NCBI RefSeq assembly: GCF_015712165.1
Contig: NZ_JADPZX010000001.1
Span: 4,724,001-4,788,000, forward strand
Length of the DNA: 64,000 nucleotides
Source of the DNA: Streptomyces spinoverrucosus
Lineage (GTDB): Bacteria > Actinomycetota > Actinomycetes > Streptomycetales > Streptomycetaceae
Direction of reading: 5' to 3'
The notes under the pieces were generated by a model that saw nothing but the letters and a program-made list of their open reading frames with translations, was not told where the DNA came from and did not search any database. A program made the translations under genes and the position numbers. Positions 55,562 to 62,663 of this stretch are shown here, piece by piece. Within the stretch, counting starts at the first letter, position 1; the number at the start of each line of letters is the position of its first letter.

Positions 55562-56254
55562 ATGAGCACGCGTGCAGTCCTGGAGGTGATCGCCCTCGAC
55601 GCCGAGGACGCGGTCGCCGCCCAGGCCGGAGGCGCGGATCGCCTCGAACTGGTCACCGACATGGCGGCGGACGGGCTGACGCCGTCCGCCGAGACCGTCG
55701 CCGCGATCCGGGCCGCCGTCGACATTCCGCTGCGCGTGATGCTGCGGCTGGCGGACGGGTTCGCGGCGGGGGACGTCAGGCGGCTCGTCGAGGTGGCGGG
55801 GCGGATGCGGGAGGCCGGGGCCGAGGAGTTCGTGCTCGGGTTCCTCGATGCCGACGGCGGGGTGGACCTGGACGCCGTGGAGCGGGTGGTCGGCGTGCTG
55901 GACGGGTGCCGGTGGACGTTCCACCGGGCGATCGACCGGGCGGCGGACCGGGACGCCTTGCGGAAGCAGCTCGACGGGATGCCGGGGTTGGACACGTATT
56001 TGACGGCCGGTTCCGCGACCGGCGTCGACGACGGGCTTCCCACGCTGCTCGCGGAGGCGGCGCGGGGCGCGGAGCCGGGGTACGAGCAGCGGGTTCTCGT
56101 GGGCGGAGGGCTGCGACTCGACCACGTGCCGGTGCTGCGGGCCGCCGGAATCGACGGCTTCCACATCGGCGGCGCGGCCCGTCCCGGGGGCTGGGCGGGC
56201 CCGGTGTCGGCGGCGGCCGTCGGGGAGTGGCGCCGCGCACTCGACGGCCCCTGA
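55562..56254 (+). CDS. CutC-family TIM-barrel protein
   Basis: 230 residues from ATG 55562 with AAAGGGG upstream; an in-frame ATG 36 bp earlier lacks a good site. CutC features: GGADRLELVTDMAADGLTP, VMLRLADGFAAGDVRRLVEVA, CRWTFHRAIDRAADRD, TAGSATGVDDGL, VGGGLRLDHVPVLRAAGIDGFHIGGAARP. The family was named for copper homeostasis but is likely a TIM-barrel enzyme of unknown reaction. The dre-like site upstream hints at amino-sugar metabolism. Confidence 0.88.
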   Translation: MSTRAVLEVIALDAEDAVAAQAGGADRLELVTDMAADGLTPSAETVAAIRAAVDIPLRVMLRLADGFAAGDVRRLVEVAGRMREAGAEEFVLGFLDADGGVDLDAVERVVGVLDGCRWTFHRAIDRAADRDALRKQLDGMPGLDTYLTAGSATGVDDGLPTLLAEAARGAEPGYEQRVLVGGGLRLDHVPVLRAAGIDGFHIGGAARPGGWAGPVSAAAVGEWRRALDGP

Positions 56255-56268
56255 GCAGGCGGTGCCTG

Positions 56269-59200
56269 TCAACGCCGGTCGCACGGCGGGTCGTAGTCCA
56301 GTTGCGGGATGTACGTGTCCCAGAGCTCGGGGGTCAGAAGGTTCCCGGTCGCCCGGCACACGTGGTCGACGGCGGTGCGGACGGACAGCGGCAGGATGTG
56401 CACGGTGGCCTCGCCGGTGCCGATGAAGAGGAAGCGGCCGTCAGGGGAGAACGTGGCGTCGTTGACGTAATTGGTGACGCCGGTCAGCGGCAGACCGTGC
56501 GCCCGTGCGCGGCCCCGCTCGTCGACGTCCCACAGCCGCACCGTCGTGTCGAAGCTGCCGCTGACCAGCGTGCGCCCGTCCGGGCTGAAGGCCAGGGTGT
56601 AGACGGTGTCCTTGTGGCCGGTCAGCGGGCGGCCCGCAGGCGTGGGGCGGGTGCGGTCGGCGAGGTTCCACAAGCGGATCGCGGCGTCGTTGCCGGAGGT
56701 GGCGAGGGTCCGGCCGTCCGGGCTGAAGACGACCCCGATGGCTCGGCCGCCACTGGCCTGCAGGGGTTCGCCCAGCGGAGCCGGGCGCTCGGGCCGGGCG
56801 ATGTCCCACAGGCGGACGGCGCCGTCCTGGGCCACGGCGGCGAGCGTGTGGCCGTCCGGGCTGACGGCCACACGCCACACCTCGCCCGCGGCGGCCTTCA
56901 ACGGTCGTCCCAGGGGCGCGGGCCGGGACGGATCGGACACGTTCCACAGGGCGATGGTGCCGTCCCCGTTGCTCCCTGCCAGGGTGCGCCCGTCCGGGGT
57001 GAACCGGACGTCCGTGAAGTTCCCCCGCGAGTTGCGCAGCGGCTTGCCGAGCGGTCGGGGCGTGGCCGGTTCGGTGACGTCCCACAGCCGGACGTCCGTG
57101 CCGGCCGCGACGGCCAGACTCCTGCGATCAGGGCTGAAGGCGACGGCGTTGACGTACGGTGTGGCGCCCCGGATCGACGAGCTGACCGGGCGCGCGGCGG
57201 CCGGGTCGCGGACGTCCCAGAGCCGGACGGTGTTGTCCTCGGAGCCCGAGGCGAGCAACCGGCCGTCGGGGCTGACGTCGACGGTGTCGACGTAACTGGT
57301 GTGTCCGCTCAGGATCGTGCGCGGGATCGTCCACAGCCGCACGGTGTGGTCGGCGCCGGCACTGGCCAGCATGGTGCCCTTCGGGTCGAAGGCCAGTGCC
57401 CGCACAGGGCCGGAGTGGCCGTTCAGGGGCTGGGTGAAGGTCTGGACGTTGCCCGGATCGGTCACGTTCTCGAGCCGGATCGTGTGGTCGTCCCCGCCGT
57501 AGGCCATGAGGGGGCCGGTACGGGAGAAGGCGACGGTGTTGACGACGTTGTTGCTCTCCCGGGCGGCGCGCGGGACCGGCTTGGCGGGGTTCTTCACGTC
57601 CCACAGGTGGGCGGTCTGGTCGCTGCCCGCCGCGGCCAGCGTGCGGCTGTCCGGGCTGAACGCGACGGCCTGCGCGTAGCCCGGGAGACCGGCCCGGAAC
57701 GCGATGTCGGGCGTCCGCCCGACCGGCGTCGGCTTCCGTCGGTCCGTCACCTCCCACAACCGCACCGACGCATCGCTGCCGCCGCTCGCCAGCAGCTTGC
57801 CGTCCGGACTGAAGGCCACGCCGTTCACCTCGTCCGTGGAGGCGGGCAGCGGCTTGGAGAGGGCGCGCGGGCGCGCGGGGTCGGTGACCTCCCACAGGTG
57901 GACGTGGCCGTCGCCGCCCGCCACTGCGAGGGCCCGCCCGTCCGGGCTGAAGGCGAGCGTCTTCAGCGCCCCGCTGCCCGCACCGCCGGCGGAGCCCAGG
58001 CCCTTCGGGCGACGCGGGTCGCGGACGTCCCACAGGCGTACCGTGCCGTCGTCGCCGGCGACGGCCAGCACCTGTCCCCGAGGGCTGAAGGCGAGCGCCC
58101 GTATCGGGCCCCGGGGGCCGCGCAGCGGATCACCCAGCGGTACGGGGCCACCCGCACGCCCGGTCTGCCACAACCGGATCGTGCCGTCGTCGCCCGTGCT
58201 GGCCAGCAGGCGTCCGTCCGGGCTGAAGTCCACGGCGTTCACCCGGCCCGTATGACCGGTCAGCACGGAGGCCAGCGGCACGTTCTGGGCACTGAGCAGC
58301 CGGGTCTGCGTCGACGCGGCCGGGGACATCCGGTGCGCGACCAGATCCAGCTGGGCGGCCAACGACGTGTCGCTCGCCCGCACCAGGTCGGCCTGCGCCC
58401 TGATCTCGCCGAGGATCGCCGCGTTCCGTTCCTGCTGGGCGGTGTCGCGCTGGTGGAAGGCGAGCGCGGCGGAGACCGCGGCGAGGACGGCCAGCGCCGT
58501 CAGTCCCGCGATGACGCCCTGACGGATCCGGCGCGCGCGGCGCCGCTGCCGGAGCGAGGCGGCCACGAACGCGGCCACGACCGGATCCGGCTCCCCCGCC
58601 CCGCCGTCGCCGGCCGTGCCGCAGACCTCTTCCAGCCGCTGGCCCCGGTACAGCAGCCCCGGGTCGCGACCGGCCTCCTGCCACGCGGTGGCCGCGTCCT
58701 CCAGCCGCTGGCGGGCCATGTACTGGACGCGGTGCGCCTCGATCCACTCGCGCAGGCGCGGCCAGGCGCGCAGCAGCACCTCGTGGGTGATGGTGACCGT
58801 GTCCCGCTCTCGGGTCAGCAGCCGTCCCCGGGTGAACGTCTCCACCACCTCGGCCGTTTCACGGGAGCGCCCGCAGTGGTCCAGCAGTTCGGCGTACCGC
58901 ACCGGGCGTCGCGTGTCCTGGGTGCCGTCGCCGAACTTCACCAGGCGCAGGAACACGGACTGCGCCGTCCGCCGCGCCCGTGCATCCAGCCGCTCGAAGC
59001 AGCGGTCCGCCTCTGCCGTCACGCTGTGCGCGATGCCGCCGGTGGACTCGTAGCCGTCCACGGTGAGGACGTGGCCCGACCGGCACAGCCAGGTGGCGCG
59101 CAGCGCGTGGGCGAGCAGCGGCAGCCGGCCGATCTCGTAGGCGTCGGTTTCGTCCCTGCCGGGGTGTGCCACGTCCGGTTCCCGTGCGCCGAGGTCGCGC

Positions 59201-60111
59201 AACAGGACCTGCACGAGGCCCGGTTCCACGTCCAGCCCGACCGCGCGGGCCGGGTGGAGGATCGCCTCCCGCACCCCGGACCGGGACAGCGGGCCCACGA
59301 TCACCTGGTTGCGCTCCACCGCTTCGAGAAGCCCCGGGTGGGCCGCGCAGTGCGTGTAGAAGTCCGAGCGCAGACCGAGGACGACCAGGCCGACGCTCGG
59401 TTCGCCGCCGGGGCCCGGCTCCGCCAGGCGCAGCACCGCGTCGAGGAAGTCCCGTCGGGCCCGCTCGTCCGCGCAGAGCGTGAACAGCTCCTCCAACTGG
59501 TCCACGACCAGCACCAGACGACGTCCCCTGCCGCCCGCGGCGAGCGCGCGCCGCAGGACGGCTGGCGCCCACACCGGCCCATCCGGCCCATCAGGCCCGT
59601 CCGCCCCATCACCCGACGCTCCCGGCCCCGCGCGCACCACCTCCGACAGGCAGGAGCCGAGGGCCGCCATCGGGCGGGCGGTCGGGGTCAGCCACAGCCG
59701 GGGCCAGGACGCCGAGCCCGGCAGGGCGCCTCGGGCGATCTCCGGCACGAGCCCCGCTCTGAGCAGCGAGGACTTCCCGGCCCCGGAGGGTGCGACGACG
59801 ACCAGCGCCCCGCCCATCGCGAGGCAGGCGTCCAGCCGGACCAGCAGCTTGGCCACCAGCGCGTCCCTGCCGAAGAACCACTGCGCCTGTTCCGCGCTGA
59901 AGGCGGCCAGCCCGGGATACGGGCACTCCTGGGACCGGGCCGAGGTGAGCACGCGACGGGCCGTGCGCACGCCGTCCTCGTAGTGCAGGTGCAGGTCACG
60001 CTCCGAGACGTACAGATCCCGGTGCGCCTGGTAGATCCTGGCCCGGTCCGAGGCGTGCGCCTGCCACCGGACGGTCTCGCCGCGCGAGTCCGGTCCGCCG
60101 GCGGGGCTCAT
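56269..60111 (-). CDS. nSTAND NTPase with transmembrane segment and C-terminal WD40 propellers
   Basis: 1280 residues. An N-terminal motif RIYQAHRDLYVSERD (about 25-39) precedes a STAND NTPase with Walker A APSGAGKSS (107-115) and Walker B LVLVVDQLEELF (about 199-210). A helical region and a hydrophobic segment (IAGLTALAVLAAVSAALAF, about 527-546) follow. From about 610 to 1240 there are about 13-14 WD40 repeats (SPDGRLLASTGDDGTIRLW and similar), enough for two seven-bladed propellers. STAND proteins switch on by ligand binding to the repeat domain and oligomerise. ATGA overlap couples it to the small upstream protein that shares the QA(G/H)RD motif. Confidence 0.92.
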   Translation of the reverse strand: MSPAGGPDSRGETVRWQAHASDRARIYQAHRDLYVSERDLHLHYEDGVRTARRVLTSARSQECPYPGLAAFSAEQAQWFFGRDALVAKLLVRLDACLAMGGALVVVAPSGAGKSSLLRAGLVPEIARGALPGSASWPRLWLTPTARPMAALGSCLSEVVRAGPGASGDGADGPDGPDGPVWAPAVLRRALAAGGRGRRLVLVVDQLEELFTLCADERARRDFLDAVLRLAEPGPGGEPSVGLVVLGLRSDFYTHCAAHPGLLEAVERNQVIVGPLSRSGVREAILHPARAVGLDVEPGLVQVLLRDLGAREPDVAHPGRDETDAYEIGRLPLLAHALRATWLCRSGHVLTVDGYESTGGIAHSVTAEADRCFERLDARARRTAQSVFLRLVKFGDGTQDTRRPVRYAELLDHCGRSRETAEVVETFTRGRLLTRERDTVTITHEVLLRAWPRLREWIEAHRVQYMARQRLEDAATAWQEAGRDPGLLYRGQRLEEVCGTAGDGGAGEPDPVVAAFVAASLRQRRRARRIRQGVIAGLTALAVLAAVSAALAFHQRDTAQQERNAAILGEIRAQADLVRASDTSLAAQLDLVAHRMSPAASTQTRLLSAQNVPLASVLTGHTGRVNAVDFSPDGRLLASTGDDGTIRLWQTGRAGGPVPLGDPLRGPRGPIRALAFSPRGQVLAVAGDDGTVRLWDVRDPRRPKGLGSAGGAGSGALKTLAFSPDGRALAVAGGDGHVHLWEVTDPARPRALSKPLPASTDEVNGVAFSPDGKLLASGGSDASVRLWEVTDRRKPTPVGRTPDIAFRAGLPGYAQAVAFSPDSRTLAAAGSDQTAHLWDVKNPAKPVPRAARESNNVVNTVAFSRTGPLMAYGGDDHTIRLENVTDPGNVQTFTQPLNGHSGPVRALAFDPKGTMLASAGADHTVRLWTIPRTILSGHTSYVDTVDVSPDGRLLASGSEDNTVRLWDVRDPAAARPVSSSIRGATPYVNAVAFSPDRRSLAVAAGTDVRLWDVTEPATPRPLGKPLRNSRGNFTDVRFTPDGRTLAGSNGDGTIALWNVSDPSRPAPLGRPLKAAAGEVWRVAVSPDGHTLAAVAQDGAVRLWDIARPERPAPLGEPLQASGGRAIGVVFSPDGRTLATSGNDAAIRLWNLADRTRPTPAGRPLTGHKDTVYTLAFSPDGRTLVSGSFDTTVRLWDVDERGRARAHGLPLTGVTNYVNDATFSPDGRFLFIGTGEATVHILPLSVRTAVDHVCRATGNLLTPELWDTYIPQLDYDPPCDRR

Positions 60112-60524
60112 GACTCGTGGATGATCTGGTCACGCCCGGCCTGGTAGACCCGGCCGTGTCCGGACGCCTCGGCCCGGAACTCGTGCGATCCGGTGCGGGG
60201 GCCGGCCTCGCGGCGCAGCAGCGGGGCGATCTCCTCGTCGACCAGCCGCCGCAGCTCGCCGCTCAGCGCGGGGTCGTCCCGCAGCAGTGCGGTCAGCCGG
60301 GACCCCCAGGCCGCCACCAGCCGGGATTCCTCGGTCTCGTCGTTCGTCAGACGGGCGGTCAGCGCGCGTTCCCGGGACTCGGCCAGGGCCGCTTCCACCC
60401 GGTTCGCCTGGCGGGGACGTACGTGCCGCCACCAGCCGACGAGGACCGCCCGTACCTGTTGCCATGCGTCGGTGGTCATGGCCCCCACCAAGGCCGTGGC
60501 TGCCGACGACGCGAGTTCGTCCAT
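60108..60524 (-). CDS. Small helical partner protein ending in a QAGRD motif
   Basis: 138 residues from ATG 60524 with TTGAGGACG upstream. It begins MDELASSAATALVGAMTTDA, has a short hydrophobic/aromatic part (VRAVLVGWWRHVRP), then long charged helices. It ends GRVYQAGRDQIIHES, a motif like the N-terminal one in the nSTAND protein (RIYQAHRDLYVSE). The genes overlap by 4 bases. Shared short terminal motifs between an adaptor or effector and an NLR-like protein are typical of motif-templated signalling. The N-terminal domain's function is unknown. Confidence 0.82.
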   Translation of the reverse strand: MDELASSAATALVGAMTTDAWQQVRAVLVGWWRHVRPRQANRVEAALAESRERALTARLTNDETEESRLVAAWGSRLTALLRDDPALSGELRRLVDEEIAPLLRREAGPRTGSHEFRAEASGHGRVYQAGRDQIIHES

Positions 60525-60623
60525 CGTCCTCAACCTCGCTGGTCGTGCCCTGTAACCAACGTACTCAGTGGGTGGCTTTTGGGGTAGTCTGTCGCAATTC
60601 GTTGAATCCTGAAGGAAGCGCCC

Positions 60624-62663
60624 TCAGGTGAGTTGCTGCGGCAGCGGCGCCATGTGGGTGACGATCAGCCCGGACACGGCTCGGGTCAGCACCACGTACA
60701 GACGCCGCAGGCCGGTCCCTTCGTCCGGCTCGCCGTCGACCACGGCCCGGGGTTCGTCCAGGACCACGTAGTCGTACTCCAGACCCTTGGCCAGTGAGGC
60801 CGGGACCAGGGTCAGACGGGTTTCGTACGACGTCTCCTCGCCGGGGGCCAAGTAGCCGATCCCGGCTGCCGTGAGCGCCTCCGCGAGCGCCGGGACGCGG
60901 GCGTCCGCCGCGATCAGGCCCACCGAGCCCTCGTTCGCGAGCGATTCGGCGCAGGCGGCCACCACGTCCGCGTCGCCCGCCACCTGCCGGACCTCGAACG
61001 CACCGGGATTCTCACGCACCGACGCCACCGGCGTCAGGCCCGGCGCGATGTGCGGCAGCAGCCGGGAGGCGTACGTGATGACGTCCGTCGGGACGCGGAA
61101 ACCCGCCGTCAGCTCCTCGATCAGCGCGTCGCCCTTGCCCAGGTGGGCCAGGGCCTCCTGCCAACTGCCCGTCGCCCAGGGCGTGGTGCCCTGCGCCAGG
61201 TCGCCGAGGACCGTCGCGGAGCCGGTCGTGCAGCGGCGGCCGACCGCTCGGTACTGCATGGGCGACAGGTCCTGCGCCTCGTCGAGGACGACATGGCCGA
61301 GCGACGGCGTGCGGTCGATCAGGTCCCTCGCCTCGTCGATCAGCACCGCGTCCGCCGCCGACCACTTCGCCGACTTCACCGACCGCGCCGGTCTCGCCCA
61401 CAGGACCGTCTTCTGCTCGTCCTCGCCCAGTACGCCCTCCGCGTGTACGGCGAGAAAGTCCGCGTCGGTCAGCAGCCGCAGCACCAGCTTCGCCGGATCG
61501 ACGGCCGGCCAGATCGCCTTGACCGCCGCCTTCACGGCACTATTGCGGGCCACCGCGTCCTGCACCCGGTCGTCCGGCGCCTCACCCGACCGTTCCATCT
61601 GCACCAGCACGGCATGCGCGATCCGCTGCGGCAGGGCCTCGCGGGCGGCGCCGTACCGGATGCCCCGGTCCAGCAACTCCCGCACGATCTCCTCGACTTC
61701 GTACGCCGGCACCCGCCACCGACGCGACCCCCGCACCACGACCACCGGCTCCGTGGGCATGGTCACGTGCGCGTACAGCGCCCGGCGGACGACCTCCGCC
61801 ATCCTCGCGTCCCCCTTGACGAGGGCGGCCGCCGCGTCGTCCGTGCCCCGCACCTCCACATGCGCCACCAGGTCGTCGACCGTCGCCTGTCGTACCGTCA
61901 ACTCGCCCAGCGCCGGGAGCACTTGCTCGATGTAGTGCAGGAAGGAGCGGTTCGGGCCGATCACGAGGGTGCCGGTGCGGGCCAGCCGCTCGCGGTGGGC
62001 GTAGAGGAGGTACGCCACGCGGTGCAGGCCGACCGCGGTCTTCCCGGTGCCGGGACCGCCCTGCACGCACACCGTGCCGCCCAGCCCGCTGCGCACGATC
62101 TCGTCCTGCTCCGGCTGGATCGTGGCGACGATGTCCCGCATCGGGCCCACACGCGGGCGCTCGATCTCCTGCTGGAGCAGCTTGCTGGTCCGCGCCGCCT
62201 CGGCCGGGTCGGAGAGGTGCTCGTCCTCGTACGCTGTCAACTCCCCGCCGAGGTAACCGAAACGGCGGCGCAGCGCGATGTCCATCGGGTCCTTCTTGGA
62301 CGCCCGGTAGAAAGGCTGCGAGACCGGCGCACGCCAGTCGATGACCATCGGGTCGCCGTCCGCGTCGTGCACATGCCGGCGCCCGATGTAGAAGCGTTCA
62401 CCGTGTGCGCCCTCGGCCTGCTCGACGCCGGGCGCGCGCAGATAGTCGAGGCGGCCGAAGAACAGCGGGGTGTCGCTGAGGTCGGCGAGGGCCTTGATGC
62501 GCTCGTCGATCTGGCGTTCCAGGATCTGGGCGTTGACCCAGTTCGCGGTGACGTCGCTGATGTCGAGCGACTCGACGTCCTCCCGCATCGCCCGCAGCGC
62601 GGAACGGGACGCGGCGAGGTGGGAACGCTCATGGGCGAGCGGATCGTCGGCGGGCGTGGCCAA
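60624..62663 (-). CDS. HelD-type UvrD/Rep-like helicase, RNA polymerase associated
   Basis: 679 residues from a TTG at 62663 with GGAGG eight bases upstream. The N-terminal coiled-coil arm (about 1-75) would reach into the RNA polymerase channel. It is followed by RRHVHDADGDPMVIDWRAP, typical of HelD. The superfamily 1 motifs are VCVQGGPGTGKTAVGLHR (Walker A, about 200-208), HVVLDEAQDLSPMQ (motif II) and EYDYVVLDEP plus LYVVLTRAVSGL (motif VI). HelD releases stalled polymerase, and some actinobacterial forms (HelR) give rifampicin tolerance. No rifampicin-associated element was found upstream. Confidence 0.9.
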   Translation of the reverse strand: MATPADDPLAHERSHLAASRSALRAMREDVESLDISDVTANWVNAQILERQIDERIKALADLSDTPLFFGRLDYLRAPGVEQAEGAHGERFYIGRRHVHDADGDPMVIDWRAPVSQPFYRASKKDPMDIALRRRFGYLGGELTAYEDEHLSDPAEAARTSKLLQQEIERPRVGPMRDIVATIQPEQDEIVRSGLGGTVCVQGGPGTGKTAVGLHRVAYLLYAHRERLARTGTLVIGPNRSFLHYIEQVLPALGELTVRQATVDDLVAHVEVRGTDDAAAALVKGDARMAEVVRRALYAHVTMPTEPVVVVRGSRRWRVPAYEVEEIVRELLDRGIRYGAAREALPQRIAHAVLVQMERSGEAPDDRVQDAVARNSAVKAAVKAIWPAVDPAKLVLRLLTDADFLAVHAEGVLGEDEQKTVLWARPARSVKSAKWSAADAVLIDEARDLIDRTPSLGHVVLDEAQDLSPMQYRAVGRRCTTGSATVLGDLAQGTTPWATGSWQEALAHLGKGDALIEELTAGFRVPTDVITYASRLLPHIAPGLTPVASVRENPGAFEVRQVAGDADVVAACAESLANEGSVGLIAADARVPALAEALTAAGIGYLAPGEETSYETRLTLVPASLAKGLEYDYVVLDEPRAVVDGEPDEGTGLRRLYVVLTRAVSGLIVTHMAPLPQQLT

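Follow-up and report, generated by a model that had tools for sequence, protein, structure and literature searches.

Gene pair and domain architecture

The two genes described here lie next to each other on the minus strand of the window (i.e. the whole 64,000-nucleotide stretch of DNA that was analysed, to which all coordinates refer unless otherwise stated). The smaller gene encodes a putative effector or adaptor and the larger one a candidate receptor. Their features are as follows.

60108–60524, minus strand: small effector/adaptor gene, 138 aa (ORF list; homologue family)
56269–60111, minus strand: nSTAND1-WD40 receptor gene, 1280 aa (ORF list and Pfam)
60108–60111, minus strand: stop/start overlap of both genes, 4 nt (ORF list; equal overlap on plasmids NZ_CP030074.1 and NZ_CP109318.1)
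60207–60518, minus strand: predicted five-helix bundle, residues 3–106 of the small protein (AlphaFold2 model)
60114–60182, minus strand: effector-side copy of the shared motif, at the C-terminus and modelled as disordered (profile match, E 1.1e-14, and conservation)
59998–60072, minus strand: receptor-side shared motif, N-terminal (profile match, E 3.9e-6)
58660–59922, minus strand: nSTAND1 NTPase, residues 64–484 (PF20703, E 1.9e-116)
58459–58515, minus strand: hydrophobic segment, residues 533–551, likely one membrane span (hydropathy 2.36)
56362–58269, minus strand: 13 stretches of WD40 repeat, beginning near residue 615 and with an approximate end (Pfam)

The open reading frame of the small gene extends from 60108 to 60533 on the minus strand; the ATG at 60524 gives a protein of 138 residues, and an equivalent start is found in most of the aligned homologues (MDPI, MDEL and similar). 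The ATG of the receptor gene, at 60111, overlaps the stop codon of the small gene by 4 nt, which is the overlap that the initial annotation had reported. Pairs on NZ_CP030074.1 and NZ_CP109318.1 overlap to the same extent.

The receptor matched nSTAND1 (PF20703) with 390 bits against a gathering cut-off of 27.1 (E 1.9e-116), and both a P-loop (APSGAGKSS) and the sequence VVDQLEEL can be read in its NTPase. Together with the 13 WD40 stretches, this agrees with the earlier description of an nSTAND-WD40 protein. A membrane segment had also been placed after the NTPase and before the WD40 part; it is plausible because there is a hydropathy peak in that interval, with a 19-residue mean of 2.36 at residues 533–551. 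Of the PADLOC models, HEAT-ARM_XIII was matched in part by the WD40 region and mads_8 weakly by the P-loop, and none of the defence models matched over a specific part of either protein. The same genome carries a second full-length nSTAND1-WD40 protein (C1:3864336-3865529), with a different N-terminal region that we read as possibly DNA-binding; this protein, the sole other full-length nSTAND1 match of the genome, gave no match to the motif profile described below.

A motif shared by the two proteins

The C-terminal end of the small protein, FRAEASGHGRVYQAGRDQIIHE, and the N-terminal end of the receptor, WQAHASDRARIYQAHRDLYVSE, align without gaps over about 22 residues, so that the shared stretch (hereafter the tag) is longer than the QA(G/H)RD motif noticed at the outset. 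For searches we used a profile of 25 columns built from 28 effector-side rows, namely the window's own tail, 17 database homologues and 10 loci of 150 congeneric genomes; rows 2 and 24 contained typing errors, and there was no receptor-side sequence among the rows. Since the profile was built from effector tails, its effector-side matches arise partly by construction.

When the whole genome of 8.85 Mb was searched, only two sites had an E-value below 0.2: the small gene (1.1e-14) and the N-terminus of the receptor (3.9e-6). The next two matches listed had E-values of 0.21 and 2.0. The receptor side scored 26.0 bits, or 26.3 bits when profile rows 1 and 2 were left out, which removed the window's own tail. 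The gap-free alignment and these matches confirm the earlier claim of a motif common to both proteins.

Motif pairs in congeneric genomes

In the 150 congeneric genomes the profile gave at least 98 matches at E 0.01 or better, in at least 47 genomes; 57 candidates per genome were scored, and 98 is thus a lower bound. Sixty-four of the 98 matches form 32 adjacent pairs, on the same strand and within 400 nt of each other, in 30 genomes including the one studied here, where uniform placement would be expected to give approximately 0.003 pairs. The 34 unpaired matches include some at contig ends (G120:C175 and G120:C177), some whose partner missed the threshold, and a few that look like chance (L133 and L140). 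Conservation of the motif in homologous pairs had been named beforehand as one half of the test of the idea, and these 32 pairs in 30 of 150 genomes, with the pair-specific matching described next, show that it is conserved.

We compared the two tags within each pair by permutation, using the 37 pairs, out of 95 loci, in which the tags on either side passed score thresholds. The effector tag scored 49.1 against its own receptor tag and 41.0 against those of permuted pairs (p 5e-5). After exclusion of similar motifs, which left 27, 20 or 12 pairs, p ranged from 5e-5 to 1e-4; some effect of shared ancestry may persist in this permutation test. The smallest p values for single positions (0.0005–0.002, 29 pairs, uncorrected for the 25 positions) were seen at motif positions 14, 15 and 20, which are the Y, the Q and the second Q of YQAGRDQ. 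In a separate alignment-based pairing a downstream ORF was identified in 44 of 66 loci, a figure partly owing to a strict filter. A raw score of 40 or more was reached by 30 of these 44 own pairs, but also by 35% of swapped pairs, so this cut-off is unspecific and the permutation test is preferred.

The small protein

The AlphaFold2 model of the small protein consists of five predicted helices (residues 3–15, 21–35, 37–59, 63–83 and 87–106), with block pLDDT values of 90–98 up to residue 100, followed by a disordered tail that bears the tag. Disorder of the motif in such a model neither shows nor excludes amyloid. Searches with Pfam, NCBIfam and PADLOC gave no meaningful match for the small protein (best Pfam E 0.057), and Foldseek and VIA-align gave no useful fold match to its model in the PDB, where a missing HeLo match is no evidence of absence.

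The domain family was matched at E 0.001 in 75 of the 150 congeneric genomes, the own genome included, with no identity above 54% to the small protein among the other matching genomes of that set. Homologues of 70–89% identity are present in other Streptomyces, and relatives also occur in Nonomuraea, Herbidospora, Kitasatospora and Embleya. A phylum-wide search was positive for at least 2 of 296 genomes, each from this genus; as 28 candidates per genome were scored, this says little on spread. A single-sequence search for related loci gave three. Across 46 aligned homologues W21, W73 and D132 are invariant, and tag residues 120–122, 125–132 and 135 are at least 90% conserved, as are part of the residues of the helical region. 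Some relatives of the small protein carry other tails, e.g. of the TISGGVQHGTVIQA types.

The predicted arrangement, a small alpha-helical bundle N-terminal to the motif, is that of a Bell domain. Passages of PMC7889193 describe Bell with a hydrophobic transmembrane helix. Hydropathy did not reveal a convincing membrane helix in the protein of the window: its best 19-residue mean is 0.83, with a median of 1.22 in its family. The test is a weak one for a Bell-like helix, because the RHIM-type set that stood in for Bell reaches only 1.55. This stand-in, some members of which are named RHIM-containing, is not the Bell profile itself; hhalign detected no homology between it and the small domain (Prob 2.2 and 1.1). 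The model of one RHIM-type protein (L111), which is less confident than that of the small protein, has five main helices and a short additional one, together with a disordered tail.

A weakly similar helical domain (E 4e-9 to 3e-4) precedes NB-ARC in five of the six fusion ORFs scanned (L089, L090, L093, L096 and L099, not L092), which argues that the helical domain is an output domain of NB-ARC-type receptors. Some of these five fusions have a different motif between the helical domain and NB-ARC.

Related tags on other receptors and effectors

Nineteen tagged receptors were scanned with Pfam. NB-ARC accompanied by TPR was found in eight and nSTAND1 in four, while the other seven gave no match to either above the cut-off. 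Among the last group, one has AAA_16 only (L058), one a sub-threshold nSTAND5 (L126) and one TPR only (L033), while four (L132, L142, L060 and L044) gave nothing.

On the effector side, a related tag is found at the end of TIR proteins at three loci of congeneric genomes (L123, L124 and L125). TIR_2 (PF13676) was matched at E 1.5e-9 in L123, and the proteins of L124 and L125 were assigned to TIR by similarity. Each of these three loci resembles an operon, and related tags occur there on the TIR protein, on a protein of the helical-bundle type and on an nSTAND1-type receptor. The gene order in L125 is TIR, a protein with a repeat-rich C-terminus that we read as kinase-like, the helical protein and the nSTAND1-like receptor. 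In another genome, at L072, which overlaps L124, the place that matches the L125 receptor is occupied by nSTAND1 according to Pfam.

Two further loci (L127 and L141) encode, beside tagged receptors, short proteins in which the tag is repeated and hydropathy shows two peaks; they are possible membrane effectors. At L132 a tagged protein of unassigned family adjoins a tagged receptor that has no Pfam match. We read the former protein as resembling a class III nucleotide cyclase; searches of Pfam and the PDB found nothing.

Genomic setting

On one side the pair is flanked by cutC and on the other by a gene for a UvrD/HelD-like helicase, as assigned by Pfam (window positions 56254–60624). Both flanks were found together in 22 of 24 congeneric genomes; in the remaining two, one contig ended and in one genome no helicase gene was detected nearby. 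The gap between the flanks is empty (about 240 nt or less) in 10 of the 24 relatives and holds 0.65–4.5 kb of other DNA in 12. Neither gene of the pair was matched by tblastn in these 22 gaps. Within the genus, the cutC–helD junction, seen also in L173–L185, is a site of variable insertions.

Relatives of the small protein occur on eight plasmid records. Seven plasmid loci were searched for the tags, and matches of at least 9 bits were accepted: L202, L203, L205, L206 and L208 have both tags, the weaker side being marginal in L206 and L208, and in L204 and L207 the effector tag alone was found, with the receptor-side tag not reaching 9 bits. At L204 the Streptomyces plasmid NZ_CP108083.1 has a small-gene relative and a WD40 gene directly adjoining a Tn7-like set of TnsA-like, Mu-transposase, AAA and TniQ genes, and the relative on NZ_CP109318.1 is flanked by IS5 transposases. 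From the empty or variable junction and the plasmid and transposon settings it follows that the pair, judged by its gene neighbourhoods, behaves as accessory, mobile cargo.

Interpretation of the locus

We consider it probable that the locus is a two-gene NLR signalosome with amyloid-type templating. The nSTAND1-WD40 protein would be the sensor, in which some ligand releases the NTPase. The receptor would then oligomerise, and its clustered N-terminal motifs could adopt an ordered, probably amyloid-type (beta-arch) structure that serves as a template for the corresponding motif in the small protein's tail and so clusters this protein. Clustering would switch on the helical domain, most likely damaging the membrane, and the infected hyphal compartment would be killed or arrested. 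Oligomerisation, amyloid templating, membrane killing and the role in phage defence are steps that we infer, and they are of unequal strength. Receptor and effector are very probably paired through the motif. An amyloid-type structure of the motif is somewhat favoured, by analogy: resemblance to a described class makes amyloid templating the best available mechanism. Killing at the membrane by the small protein is a tentative suggestion, and a weakened one because the small protein shows no clear membrane helix.

Could the similarity be due to chance, or to a recent duplication across the gene boundary, and have no function? Neighbouring genes can share short repeats, and local duplication can give adjacent genes such repeats. 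However, this reading is contradicted by the 32 adjacent pairs and by pair-specific matching that is strongest at positions 14, 15 and 20, and the tag is among the best-conserved parts of the small protein; we regard it as extremely improbable. We also think it unlikely that the pair serves development or stress signalling in place of phage defence, the small protein then being an adaptor and not a killer. Such a role would suit a pair for which PADLOC has no model as such, and a small protein that has neither a known enzyme domain nor a clear membrane helix. Against it, the pair is patchy in distribution, sometimes plasmid-borne and near transposition genes, as expected for conflict systems, and a related tag is also found on a TIR domain, a common immune effector.

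A somewhat better case, although still one that we doubt, can be made for the shared stretch as a homotypic docking motif, acting by ordinary beta-augmentation or as a small oligomer, with receptor clustering gathering the effectors. All of the genetic evidence fits any homotypic interaction, and the tag contains R, D and H and has no similarity to BASS3/RHIM. What tells against simple docking is that the layout matches the amyloid-signalosome class set out in passages of PMC7889193, and that peptides of this class (BASS3 and an archaeal NLR-side peptide) are described in parts of PMC8086366 as forming amyloid-like aggregates. We retain templating by an amyloid-type motif as the preferred reading.

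The initial annotation had regarded the system as poorly described. That view finds no support: the gene layout is already published, and passages of PMC7889193 put forward, for exactly such a layout, the hypothesis that a motif shared by an NLR and the protein of an adjacent gene acts as an amyloid-like template. Useful additions to that layout are the pair-specific matching, the related tags on several effector types and the clear accessory insertion site. Among the titles listed from open-licence literature, those for the motif string were unrelated, and none dealt with an experimental test of phage defence by bacterial NLR amyloids. The pair is a compact and well-supported candidate for testing amyloid templating by bacterial NLRs, a question in immune evolution, and the combination of pair-specific tags with operons that have both helical and TIR carriers leads to predictions on signalling specificity and cross-talk. 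More speculatively, and with rather low expectation, the YQAGRD-type tag may be a hub motif outside the ten BASS families, borne by helical effectors unrelated to Bell, such that one receptor motif per operon recruits both helical and TIR effectors. If true, it would be a bacterial counterpart of a multi-effector inflammasome.

Comparison with known systems

Avs and other STAND anti-phage NTPases combine, as here, a STAND NTPase, C-terminal sensor repeats and presumed oligomerisation. Their sensors are of the TPR type, compared with WD40 in the receptor of the window, and here, in contrast to Avs, the effector is a separate protein coupled through a short motif; no Avs model was among the PADLOC matches. 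In metazoans the RHIM of RIPK1/RIPK3 is likewise a short homotypic motif that couples a sensor to an effector, whereas profile comparison showed no relation of the tag to the RHIM-type motif of bacteria.

The BASS motifs were reportedly defined by Dyrka et al. in 2020. In the parts of the literature drawn on here, BASS1–10 motifs with Bell-domain effectors are described as bacterial amyloid NLR signalosomes (PMC7889193, PMC8086366, PMC9815663). The present pair has the corresponding arrangement, with a motif at an NLR-type N-terminus that recurs at the C-terminal end of the protein encoded by an overlapping gene. The resemblance extends to the small alpha-helical protein that carries the C-terminal copy, the adjacent or overlapping genes, the filamentous actinomycete hosts and the TIR proteins as alternative carriers. 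Unlike BASS/Bell pairs, the small domain has no detectable homology to the RHIM-type stand-ins and no clear membrane helix. With regard to aggregation, PMC8086366 in part reports that three peptides (BASS3, fungal sigma and archaeal NLR-side) formed amyloid-like aggregates and that a fourth did not.

The tag showed no similarity to RHIM/BASS3 in profile comparison (Prob 0.1–0.2), and HMM bit scores were no better than those of shuffled tails; its assignment as a BASS3/RHIM motif is ruled out by this comparison, in which BASS3 was the only BASS family. BASS2 is a possible home for the tag, since the 3-mer ARD occurs at the BASS2 C-terminus (PMC9815663, in part), and fits loosely. Two relatives (L115 and L116) combine the small-protein domain (domain-only HMM, E 7.7e-9 and 4e-8) with a RHIM-like tail, VQVGDHN, which links the helical family to a known amyloid motif class. 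In seven of eight BASS3-pattern loci, L117 being the exception, a plausible protein ends with the motif or carries it close to its C-terminal end; a strict pattern detected no further RHIM-like motif in about 1.5 kb to each side at L111–L118. At L113 a RHIM-like tail is carried by a protein that we read as resembling a TIR/SEFIR domain.

Fungal NLR-HeLo/HELL signalosomes (HET-s, PP and sigma motifs) differ from the present pair in their motif and in having NACHT where the bacterial receptor has nSTAND1. The layout is alike in several respects: neighbouring genes encode an NLR and a helical effector that have a short motif in common, and the fungal receptors, as here, include WD40 proteins.
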